Below the pieces are notes generated by a model that saw nothing but the letters and a program-made list of their open reading frames with translations, made no database searches and had not been told where the DNA came from. DNA of 64,000 nucleotides from NCBI GenBank assembly GCA_947165465.1, contig CAMVAM010000001.1, forward strand, positions 1-64,000, in the 5' to 3' direction. Every line of letters begins with the position of its first letter. Position 1 is the first letter of the stretch. Source of the stretch: an uncultured Candidatus Saccharibacteria bacterium (GTDB taxonomy: Bacteria; Patescibacteriota; Saccharimonadia; Saccharimonadales; Saccharimonadaceae). Both the position numbers and the translations under genes were made by a program. Below, in pieces: positions 53,550-56,246 of this stretch.

Positions 53550-54023
53550 GTCTCATTTTCAATCAGTCTTTTTCGGAAGACTACTTAGCCACATATTTGC
53601 CGATTCTAACACGCGATATGATTTTATGCACTTCCTATTTTTGTCGCTGTTTTCGACCTCCTCAATAAACCCACGTTTAATGGTGATTCCGGCGGGAGTT
53701 AGCTCGCAATGCTCGCTATTCACTTCGCGAGGGGCGACCAGACGTTGTTGCTCGGCTTTGCATGGTTGTGGACTGGTGTATTGACCACCCCGAATACACG
53801 GCGAAGATCAAGGTTGTACCTAAGAAAGACTACCCGGTACTAATGCCTTGCGAGCTCTGAGGTATACATATACAGGCAAAGAGATTCGAACTTTTAAGGA
53901 TTTATAGCTTTACTGGAGCTGTAGGAGCTTAAAACAATAACAATGAAGAAAATAAAAGAAATACAATGTCAATGGTAAAATTAACCACAGTACTTTATGC
54001 AACTGATGATATAATAAAAGGAT
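53550..54023. other. island left border, with a gene remnant
   Basis: This stretch holds the left tRNA-Glu repeat (53681-53699), and then a possible degraded reading frame (53762-53860, about 32 residues) that starts at ATG and was not recognised. A segment with tRNA T-arm-like sequence (about 53876-53900) and an extended -10 TGaTATAAT (54007-54015) follow. No full gene is seen before 54024. Confidence 0.45.
53681..53699 (+). repeat. left copy of the tRNA-Glu 3' end (candidate attL)
   Basis: Nineteen bases are identical to 56170-56188 in the tRNA-Glu gene, including CCA and part of the T-arm. The sequence then diverges. It marks the far end of an island about 2.5 kb long. Confidence 0.8.
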
Positions 54024-54413
54024 ATGAGCAAGAAAATAATCTTCGAGGGCCAAAGCCGCAAACAGCTTCGTTTTCATGAGGTTAACGCAATTTTGCTCCT
54101 GCTAGATTATTTTGATACTGATATCACATGCATTACTCCTGGTGCCGGAAAGACTCCAGACCTTAGAATAAGCGGCGTTGAATGGGAACTTAAATCCCCT
54201 CAAGGCGATGGTGTTAAGACGATCGAGAATATCTTAAAGAAAGCCGCAAAGCAGTCGAAGAATATCATCCTAGATTTCTCACGCATAAAGATGAACGGCA
54301 ATCAAGCGCTCTCTAGGACGAGATACTATTTACATAACAACAAGCACGGGATTAAGAAATTAATCGTCATTACGAAAAACCATAAAGTTATTGACTTTAA
54401 AGATGAGCTGTGA
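54024..54413 (+). CDS. PD-(D/E)xK nuclease-like protein (CdiA tRNase-like)
   Basis: The 129-residue protein has TPDLRISGVEWELKS (D46, E55, K57), a PD-(D/E)xK active-site pattern. KKAAKQSKNIILDF and a final strand set follow. This order resembles the C-terminal tRNase toxin domain of CdiA-type proteins. A small stand-alone nuclease next to a reverse transcriptase would fit an effector or toxin. TGaTATAAT ends eight bases before the ATG. A terminator follows. Homology is by eye. Confidence 0.55.
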   Translation: MSKKIIFEGQSRKQLRFHEVNAILLLLDYFDTDITCITPGAGKTPDLRISGVEWELKSPQGDGVKTIENILKKAAKQSKNIILDFSRIKMNGNQALSRTRYYLHNNKHGIKKLIVITKNHKVIDFKDEL

Positions 54414-54428
54414 TAAAATAATAGCATA

Positions 54429-54472
54429 GAGTGAAACAAGGCACCGTACGGAGCTGGCGACACTCTTTTTTG
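54429..54472 (+). terminator. terminator of the nuclease-like gene
   Basis: A GAGTG/CACTC stem with an inner GC-rich part is followed by a T-run. Confidence 0.7.
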
Positions 54473-54479
54473 TTATATA

Positions 54480-54488
54480 TGGTATAAT
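54480..54488 (+). promoter_or_regulatory. extended -10 promoter of the structured RNA
   Basis: TGgTATAAT, with the start near 54495. There is no strong -35. Confidence 0.6.
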
Positions 54489-54494
54489 GGCAAT

Positions 54495-54812
54495 ATGGCA
54501 GGCACTGCACTGTAGTGATTCAAGCCTGAAGCTTAATAAAAATCTCGTTTATCACATGATGGTTGTGGATCCATAGCGAATATGGTTGGCCAAATTGGCC
54601 GCGATCGAATATCGCTGTTAATTACTTTGTTTTGGGCTATTAGCCCCCGGCATAAGTAATAAGAATGATGTTTGTCTTTCTCTTATAAATTAAAATTTGG
54701 AATAGGAGAGTATGGCGTCATCGGTAGGGGTTGAGAACTGAATCTAGCGCGCATCCATTTAAGACGCAGCTATCGTAAGAGATAGGAGAGGCGGTTTTTG
54801 CCGTCTTAAATA
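54495..54812 (+). ncRNA. candidate msr/msd-like RNA upstream of the reverse transcriptase
   Basis: About 320 bases without a gene hold successive hairpins. CAGGC/GCCTG encloses CACT/AGTG (near 54499-54530). TGGCC/TGGCC lies at about 54589-54601. GCGAT/ATCGC is at 54601-54615. A long ATTACTT/AAGTAAT stem (54621-54660) encloses GGGCT/AGCCC. Finally TTTAAGACG/CGTCTTAAA (54758-54810) encloses CTATC/GATAG. The position upstream of a retron-type RT suggests a retron RNA, but the a1/a2 pairing and branching G were not located. Confidence 0.45.
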
Positions 54813-54835
54813 TTATCTTAATAAAGGAGGTTACC

Positions 54836-55021
54836 ATGAAAGTATCATGGCACAAAAATATTAAGTTTAATGCGCGTTCAGACGGGTCTTTAAAATTCGA
54901 AAAGACATCAGATGTCGTTATTAATACACCAGGTATTAAAAAGGCATCAAGTTTACTGCATAAGATCGTGTCTTTTGCTATAAGAGTCTATCGAAAAATT
55001 AGATCCAAGTTCTCTTCCTGA
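54836..55021 (+). CDS. small basic protein between RNA and reverse transcriptase
   Basis: The 61-residue protein is Lys/Ser-rich with a helical C-terminus. No family was recognised. AAAGGAGGTTACC before the ATG is a very strong Shine-Dalgarno. It shares an operon with the reverse transcriptase; the 36 bases between them fold into a hairpin that starts at its stop codon. Confidence 0.5.
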   Translation: MKVSWHKNIKFNARSDGSLKFEKTSDVVINTPGIKKASSLLHKIVSFAIRVYRKIRSKFSS

Positions 55022-55057
55022 GAGTTTTCTTAATAGTTAATTAAGGAAACTCTCAGG
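55017..55057 (+). promoter_or_regulatory. hairpin abutting the reverse transcriptase start
   Basis: A perfect 11-bp stem CCTGAGAGTTT / AAACTCTCAGG, with an inner TTAAT/AATTAA, fills the whole gap. Its right arm ends at the base before the ATG (55058), so ribosome access depends on opening it, perhaps by translation of the upstream gene. Confidence 0.7.
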
Positions 55058-56023
55058 ATGAGAAATAACGAAATAAGAACACTAAAAATATTATGCTCCC
55101 TGTTACATCTAAAAGAGGAGTATATTCTTGATTTAGCTAGCAGAGCCAATTCCTGCTATTATTCTTATGATAAAAAATCACGAAAAAAAGATGGTACAGC
55201 CAAAATACGTCATATAGATAGCCCGAATATCGAACTGAAAAACATACAAAAAAAGATTGATAGCGTCATAATCAAGCCATATGTAAACCTACTTCCAGAT
55301 TATATCCATGGAGCAAGAACCGGAAAAAGTATTGTTACTAACGCAACTAACCATGCTGGACATGAAGCTATCTTATCTTTAGATATAGAAAACTGCTTTC
55401 CCAGCATAACATCCAAACGCGTTTATTATGTTTTTAGAAACACTATCCATTGCTCTGATAAGGTCGCATCGGTATTAACGACGCTCACCACTAAAGATGG
55501 TGTCCTGCCACAAGGATGTCCGACTAGCGCCAGCTTGTGCAACTTAGTTCTCGTCCAGCTGATCGAAAAATTATCTGAGATTGACGACAGTCTCGACTAT
55601 AACATTTCTCATTACATAGATGACATTTTTTATTCAGGTCGTTATTGTGACCTACAGAAAATTAGGAAACCAGCGATGACTGAAATCGGAAAAAACGGAT
55701 TTAGGCCGAATACCAAGAAAACGCTTCTCGTTAAAAACGGACGTCCAATGAAAGTTACCGGCATCACGGTCAATACGAAAGTTAGCGCTGGTAGAAGAAG
55801 AATCCGAAAGATCCAACGCAAAATCCTAAAAATAACCGAAAAAGATAAAGCTGAGTATAATATCGTTTTAAAAAATAGAAAAAGAAACAATAATAGTAAA
55901 ATTAAAGCGTGTAGAATCGAGAAGCTCTTCGGCGAAATATCAAATGTGATTTCAATTAATAGAGAGCAGGGTTATAGACTTAAGAAAAAAATTGAAGCAA
56001 AGCTAAATGATTTAATTACATAA
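55058..56023 (+). CDS. retron-type reverse transcriptase
   Basis: The 321-residue protein has ordered RT motifs: NIELKNIQKKI, HGARTGKSIVTNATNHAG, then DIENCFPSI (RT3, catalytic Asp), LPQGCPTSASLCNL (RT4) and HYIDDIFYSG (YxDD, about 185-190). GFRPNTKKT (RT6) and VTGITVNTK (RT7, typical of retron RTs) follow. The length fits single-domain retron RTs. A is replaced by I in the YADD box. A basic tail follows. No maturase, Cas1 or DGR accessory gene is nearby. It lies in the tRNA-Glu island. Confidence 0.85.
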   Translation: MRNNEIRTLKILCSLLHLKEEYILDLASRANSCYYSYDKKSRKKDGTAKIRHIDSPNIELKNIQKKIDSVIIKPYVNLLPDYIHGARTGKSIVTNATNHAGHEAILSLDIENCFPSITSKRVYYVFRNTIHCSDKVASVLTTLTTKDGVLPQGCPTSASLCNLVLVQLIEKLSEIDDSLDYNISHYIDDIFYSGRYCDLQKIRKPAMTEIGKNGFRPNTKKTLLVKNGRPMKVTGITVNTKVSAGRRRIRKIQRKILKITEKDKAEYNIVLKNRKRNNNSKIKACRIEKLFGEISNVISINREQGYRLKKKIEAKLNDLIT

Positions 56024-56129
56024 ACCGCCCCACACGGTGCAATCTTGAAAGAAAAGATTAGCATTTTGAGTAAGAAATTCTTATAAAAGTGAGCGAACCC
56101 TGCGGGTTCTCGTTCTCAGCCAGAATAAC

Positions 56130-56170
56130 AGATATAAAAATAAACCCCTTTGGGGTTTCTTTTTATATCT
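56130..56170. terminator. bidirectional terminator of the island end and tRNA-Glu
   Basis: The long palindrome AGATATAAAAA-TAAACCCC / GGGGTTT-CTTTTTATATCT acts on both strands. Confidence 0.85.
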
Positions 56171-56246
56171 GGTGATTCCGGCGGGAGTCGAACCCGCGAT
56201 TTTCTGGATGAGAACCAGACGTCCTAGACCACTAGACGACGGAACC
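56170..56246 (-). tRNA. tRNA-Glu (CTC)
   Basis: The reverse strand gives a 77-base cloverleaf with loop TTCTCAT (anticodon CTC), T-loop TTCGACT and encoded CCA (56170-56172). Its 3' end is the right repeat of the island. Confidence 0.93.

Follow-up and report, generated by a model that had tools for sequence, protein, structure and literature searches.

A type VI-like retron in a mobile cassette of Saccharibacteria that begins with the tail of a large serine recombinase gene

The window, by which we mean the whole stretch of 64,000 nucleotides that was analysed, lies within a 785-kb draft genome of a member of the Saccharibacteria; all genomes compared with it are draft assemblies as well. 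Positions 53732 to 56093 of the window, read on the forward strand, form a mobile cassette (GGGCGACC...AAAAGTGAG). From left to right, this cassette carries the 3'-terminal part of the gene for a large serine recombinase (LSR), a gene for a nuclease-type protein, a putative non-coding RNA (ncRNA), an open reading frame (ORF) for a small basic protein and a gene for a retron reverse transcriptase (RT). An intact tRNA-Glu(CTC) gene, detected by ARAGORN on the reverse strand at 56170-56246, adjoins the cassette but is not part of it.

The RT gene (55058-56023, forward strand) encodes a protein of 321 residues with NAxxH, YIDD and VTG motifs, which is type VI-like. Its best PADLOC family was RT_VI (216.8 bits, 8.6e-65), 42 bits above RT_III-A, which came second (4.5e-52). 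The protein was also matched by the NCBIfam retron model (3.2e-40), and its best match in the PDB was the Ec86 RT. The preliminary description had called it a retron-type RT and had named its position in an RT tree as the point on which that assignment could fall. In our tree, the window RT grouped with the RTs of type VI retrons that bear an HTH gene and with other Saccharibacteria RTs (support 86/90), and RT_VI was also the best family for most of the related Saccharibacteria RTs tested. The retron assignment therefore stands. A domesticated RT, or an RT of another class that is no longer a retron RT, would fit the missing HTH gene and an ncRNA that is unmatched in Rfam. We nevertheless regard this as very unlikely, because the retron families score far above the group II (9.9e-9) and DRT (4.8e-5) models, the active-site YIDD and the retron NAxxH and VTG motifs are intact, and the tree places the protein among type VI RTs. 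Diversity-generating retroelements are common in CPR bacteria; such an element was ruled out here, as retron HMMs dominate. Across the family, any related RT was found in 17 of 394 genomes, and the gene itself, at the level of about 97%, in G233 only. Only two copies of the window retron are known, which, like its missing HTH gene, weighs against the reading favoured below. The closest match to the retron in a named collection was 'Candidatus Saccharibacteria bacterium RGIG10159' from yak rumen.

The region upstream of the RT gene, and before the small ORF, had been described as a structured RNA. Indeed, positions 54516-54835 (forward strand) are more structured than shuffled sequences (MFE z-values of -3.2 and -3.4), and the same upstream region of the other retron loci of the set had z-values of -2.0 to -4.3 in nine of ten cases and of +0.25 in one. 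We take this region to be the putative retron ncRNA, in which msr-like short stem-loops are followed by two longer hairpins. It had no match in Rfam. Direct reading of the sequence revealed a possible -10 element of the retron transcript, TATAAT, at 54483-54488 (forward strand; in TGGTATAAT).

The small ORF (54836-55021, forward strand), preceded by the Shine-Dalgarno sequence AAAGGAGG, encodes the basic protein of 61 residues that was noticed at the outset. Its charge is +11, its C-terminal helix is amphipathic and it is a candidate effector. Profile searches, HTH_VI included, gave no family match for it. The window retron has no HTH_VI gene, and a gap of 36 nt separates the small ORF from the RT gene. 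Folding predicts a strong hairpin (-34.1 kcal/mol; 55010-55064, forward strand) that spans the stop codon of the peptide and the start codon of the RT, and this suggests that translation of the RT is likely to be coupled to that of the peptide.

The type VI classification, reportedly that of Mestre et al. 2020, was applied here in its PADLOC definition of RT_VI plus HTH_VI, and a small basic protein lies outside that definition. In all of the 15 plasmid and phage type VI retrons that were checked, HTH-RT is immediately preceded by a small basic protein, which is annotated as hypothetical in nine of them and was picked by us from unannotated ORFs in six. It is 48-67 residues long; its N-terminal half is basic and its C-terminal helix hydrophobic or amphipathic. 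Among the Patescibacteria, L163 and L165 have a small basic protein together with an HTH gene, whereas in L003, L005, L007, L010, L011 and L169 the small basic protein lies directly upstream of the RT without an HTH gene; HTH_VI itself is present in L135, L165 and L161. The 61-residue protein of the window agrees in position and composition with the small protein of all 15 loci, although the match in composition is weak by itself, as the loose filter lets through about 25-30% of random ORFs of the same length. Judging from its sequence and its place, the 61-residue protein would therefore hold the position of the type VI small basic protein, and as a cationic amphipathic peptide it is likely to be a membrane-active effector. 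In three type VI retrons on plasmids (L221, L225 and L226), a gene for a TIR-domain protein lies directly downstream of the RT gene.

The other protein-coding gene of the cassette (54024-54413, forward strand) encodes a PD-(D/E)xK nuclease-type protein of 129 residues. The earlier recognition of this fold was borne out by a match to CdiA_C (PF18451; 69.3 bits, 3.4e-19), but the gene is not a specific part of the retron, as had been supposed. CdiA_C homologues occur in 117 of the 174 genomes of the genus, with up to nine per genome, and the closest copies are stand-alone blocks of about 465 bp (L207-L211). The corresponding sub-unit of the window (54004-54476, forward strand) consists of the CdiA_C gene, a 3' hairpin and a U-run, and this block was found alone in five other genomes. 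The 3' hairpin is conserved (GAGUG-AAACAAGGCACC-GUAC-GGAGCUGGCGA-CACUC-U6). Distant CdiA_C copies have a different conserved hairpin, AAGAUGCCCAAGAUAUUGAACUAUAUCAAGCGCGUCUU. The nuclease gene is thus an independent, dispersed unit, possibly a nuclease with an RNA antitoxin or a homing-type selfish unit. That the nuclease, rather than the 61-residue peptide, acts as the retron effector would agree with its location just upstream of the putative ncRNA, a place taken by some retron effectors, and with its 98% conservation in the G233 copy. We judge this unlikely, as the homologues in those 117 genomes mostly occur without a retron RT and the closest relatives stand alone with a 3' hairpin of their own.

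The ends of the cassette follow from a second copy and from empty sites. In G233, a Saccharibacterium from yak rumen, the block 53727-56093 recurs with 97% identity over 2368 bp and with the same two ends, at a non-homologous locus that is unrelated to the window site. Empty sites at the tRNA-Glu locus of relatives, which the preliminary description had proposed to look for, were found in two genomes of the same genus (G219 and G371). Their cassette-free site is GGCGAG^CGAACC, in fuller form TTCGGCGAG^CGAAC or, in the longer reading, ...GGAGTTAGCTCACCCATTCGGGTGAGCTATTCGCCTTCGGCGAG^CGAAC..., and the occupied site of the window reads ...TTCGCGAG|GGGCGACC ... AAAAGTGAG|CGAACC.... The borders are ambiguous by the three nucleotides GAG at both ends (53729-53731 and 56091-56093), and the insertion is exact to this GAG core. 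G360 and G346 also lack the block and have small deletions around the site. The cassette is accordingly a precise, site-specific insertion for which relatives have empty sites, as expected of an SCC-like LSR element. The same block at a second place and the empty sites in relatives support the earlier reading as a retron-type defence unit that is mobile and resides in a CPR genome.

These borders differ from the ones proposed at first, namely a 19-bp copy of the tRNA-Glu 3' end and the real end of that gene. The repeat itself is genuine: the fragment at 53681-53699 (reverse strand) is an exact copy of 56170-56188, and only 0.01 matches with up to three mismatches are expected by chance. In G219 and G371, a slightly diverged form of the fragment, TGATTCCGGCG(A/G)GGAG, is already present to the left of the empty site. 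The fragment thus predates the insertion of the cassette and is an older relic, and the 19-bp repeat is not the border of an island. That the two repeats are attL and attR of a tRNA-Glu-borne retron island, with excision by a tyrosine integrase that is itself absent, is scarcely credible, although the repeat is exact and correctly oriented. The fragment in the empty-site relatives rules out the repeats as att sites, and the recurring block stops at 53727 and 56093, not at the 19-bp repeats. Nor is the segment set apart by its composition. As had been stated, it is AT-rich (GC 36-40%) compared with the tRNA/gltX side (44-48%), but an equally low GC content (36-41%) was measured on the ABC-transporter side. 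The ABC transporter operon on that side (50947-53680), located between the tRNA-Glu relic and the Der-side genes, is absent in G219; it possibly represents the remains of an older tRNA-Glu element behind the 19-bp fragment.

The left end of the cassette is the 3' end of an LSR gene. Positions 53732-53860 (forward strand) contain its last 42 codons and stop codon (GRPDVVARLCMVVDWCIDHPEYTAKIKVVPKKDYPVLMPCEL*), in frame with the LSR across the GAG junction, and an alignment of such heads from many arrays shows that they continue into conserved noncoding DNA (53861-53930, forward strand; GGTATACATATACAGGCAAAGAG-ATTCGAACTTTTAAG...). The first 170 bp or so of the cassette are a dispersed repeat that was found in 79 of the 174 genomes of the genus and also in members of genus g11 of the same family. 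Copies of this tail often number two to four per contig, in the same orientation, separated by stretches of 0.7-8 kb that differ in cargo. Compared with the consensus, 49 distinct copies showed 257 synonymous and 133 non-synonymous codon differences, whereas the full set of possible single changes has a ratio of 83:295. An internal stop was absent from 47 of the 49 copies; the tail repeat is coding. In several heads (L090, L093, L100 and L102), a small hairpin repeat (GGATGTCGCTTCGCTCC / GGATGTCGTGCTTCGCACTCC) is inserted at one exact place in the noncoding part.

An LSR of 558 codons with Resolvase (PF00239), Recombinase (PF07508) and zinc ribbon domains is present at the right end of the array in G281, G349, G181, G322 and G175, on the same strand as the arrays and downstream of them. 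In these five genomes, the LSR frame passes through ...CCTGTTGGTGA(G/T)| and then into the antisense of the tRNA-Lys(CTT) gene, and at the left ends the frame goes on as |GGG CGA CCA... (G R P D...). The LSR gene thus runs into tRNA-Lys at the right end and has its own tail at the left end, which places attP inside the LSR gene, so that integration swaps the C-terminus of the LSR. In G282 (L127), the LSR frame reads straight into a diverged tail, which completes it. The gene glmS lies next to a tRNA-Lys without an element in G163, whereas in G349 the element is located between the two. In G233, a decayed 3' remnant of the LSR is found at tRNA-Lys, and the retron cassette is the left-most unit of that island. 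An origin of the LSR from phages was rejected, as a close-pattern search of IMG/VR returned no relative. An integron integrase or Xer as the mover was likewise rejected: PF00589 hits are not near the arrays, but lie on contigs other than those of the heads or at distances from the heads of at least tens of kilobases.

An intact LSR is encoded in L121-L125, whereas the window cassette has the 3' tail alone. This is in line with the earlier conclusion that the segment has no complete integrase of its own and depends on an outside mover. The window unit shares this state with several other arrays, in which tails are present and no LSR body is nearby. No PF00239 protein was detectable in the window's own genome, and the window unit would thus now be stranded or dependent on an incoming LSR. 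The same genome has one copy of the tail. The right ends of LSR-less cassettes commonly show G(T/C)GAG, with a weak further consensus to its left; this is less than the attP arm of an LSR normally needs and counts against reading these units as LSR cassettes.

The cargo of the arrays is diverse and includes Fic, NYN, ASCH, DUF1706, S15 peptidase and YcaO/nitroreductase proteins, a Mrr_cat/NTPase protein and an Orf5/HEC-06-like protein. Another retron-like set belongs to this cassette system as well (G371 and G282; L107 7802-9229 and L127 7479-8909). It consists of a hydrophobic, cationic peptide of 30 residues (MLEKALRFVKKVLLIIKLIAEILAILKSLF), a protein of the HTH type and an RT, for which RT_VI was the best family (2.9e-21). 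A conserved ORF of 154 codons that is unassigned to a family (MAKRHPFKKxKPGEPIPVTARQLESF...) is found near the LSR side of many arrays (L048 15036-15500, L121 6324-6788, L094, L090 and L123), and its GGCGAG codons appear to serve as an insertion target in L107.

The main rival to mobilisation in trans is homologous recombination between tails: the cassettes would be exchanged by natural transformation, and the LSR would have made the founding insertions alone. Many tails are 80-97% identical over about 170 bp, which is long enough for homologous exchange, and LSR genes are often missing or decayed. Yet the insertion target in the window has no homology to the tail, the insertion is precise down to the GAG core, and the right ends of the cassettes share no tract of homology. 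This explanation therefore seems to us rather improbable.

We consider it probable that the window segment is a non-autonomous gene cassette of the LSR family, carrying an HTH-less type VI-like retron with the peptide as its likely effector. Autonomous elements would have attP within the 3' end of the LSR gene and would integrate at a G(T/C)GAG core, typically at the 3' end of tRNA-Lys, thereby splitting the LSR gene into a tail (42 codons and the DNA downstream of them), which comes to lie at the left end, and the LSR body, which is found at the right. LSR-less cassettes would keep the tail as the left recombination end, use G(T/C)GAG as the right end and probably be moved in trans. As each insertion would leave a G(T/C)GAG junction, cassettes may accumulate in arrays. 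The RT would copy part of the upstream ncRNA into msDNA, and the 61-residue peptide, presumably toxic, would stay silent as long as no phage perturbs the RT-msDNA complex, which would make the unit a phage defence. In this account, the precise insertion, the second locus, the LSR origin of the tail, the LSR genes split at tRNA-Lys, the arrays and the class of the RT were directly demonstrated, whereas mobilisation in trans, msDNA, toxicity of the peptide and defence are inferred.

Cassettes and arrays headed by the same tail occur in nearly half of the genomes of the genus. This pattern points to an integron-like trade in defence and other accessory genes. The wider proposal has about an even chance of being right: that Saccharibacteria have an integron-like LSR system, in which the recombinase gene contains its own attP, the tails serve as portable ends for small LSR-less cassettes with retrons, Fic, STAND/restriction-type and other accessory genes, and the enzyme gathers these cassettes into arrays in trans, and that a tiny cationic membrane peptide is the effector of type VI retrons. 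A literature search, mostly outside subscription papers, retrieved no report on retrons or integron-like cassettes of Saccharibacteria, nor one on membrane peptides of retrons that are toxic. The Saccharibacteria, whose genomes are very small, live on other bacteria, and little is known about the ways in which they acquire and exchange genes for defence and accessory functions. A cassette system based on a serine recombinase, if true, would offer them an integron-like route; it would also add to the natural LSRs a new one that has a tRNA-Lys site and small portable ends. If a short peptide of the membrane type is a regular component of type VI retrons, the effector of this little-studied type could be tested directly.

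With known type VI retrons, the window retron shares the RT family, the order (putative) ncRNA, small protein, (HTH) and RT, and the short basic protein with its hydrophobic or amphipathic C-terminal helix; it differs in having no HTH gene, in the likely coupling of peptide and RT by a hairpin, and in an LSR cassette as carrier. As to the carrier, the SCC elements of staphylococci are moved by the large serine recombinases CcrA/B/C and form tandem and pseudo-SCC composite islands. The Saccharibacteria cassettes resemble them in LSR-driven insertion at a fixed chromosomal site, tandem accretion, recombinase-less units and mixed accessory cargo. They differ from SCC in that attP lies inside the LSR gene, each unit bears an LSR tail, units can be as small as one to three genes, and the usual site is tRNA-Lys instead of rlmH. 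Integron gene cassettes are small, have one recombination end and receive their recombinase in trans. Small one-ended cassettes, arrays in the same orientation and, probably, a recombinase supplied in trans are common to both systems, but the Saccharibacteria cassettes involve a serine instead of a tyrosine recombinase and their conserved end is a protein-coding tail; no folded site of the attC type was seen in them. The SSV-type archaeal integrases have attP within int, and the gene is split on integration. An integrase gene that is partitioned as it inserts itself into a tRNA gene is thus a shared trait, whereas the SSV-type enzymes belong to the tyrosine family of archaeal viruses and here a bacterial LSR is split near its 3' end, its tail being reused by non-autonomous cassettes. 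The LSR element therefore works in an SSV-like manner, yet it is not a member of the SSV type, as its enzyme is a serine recombinase.
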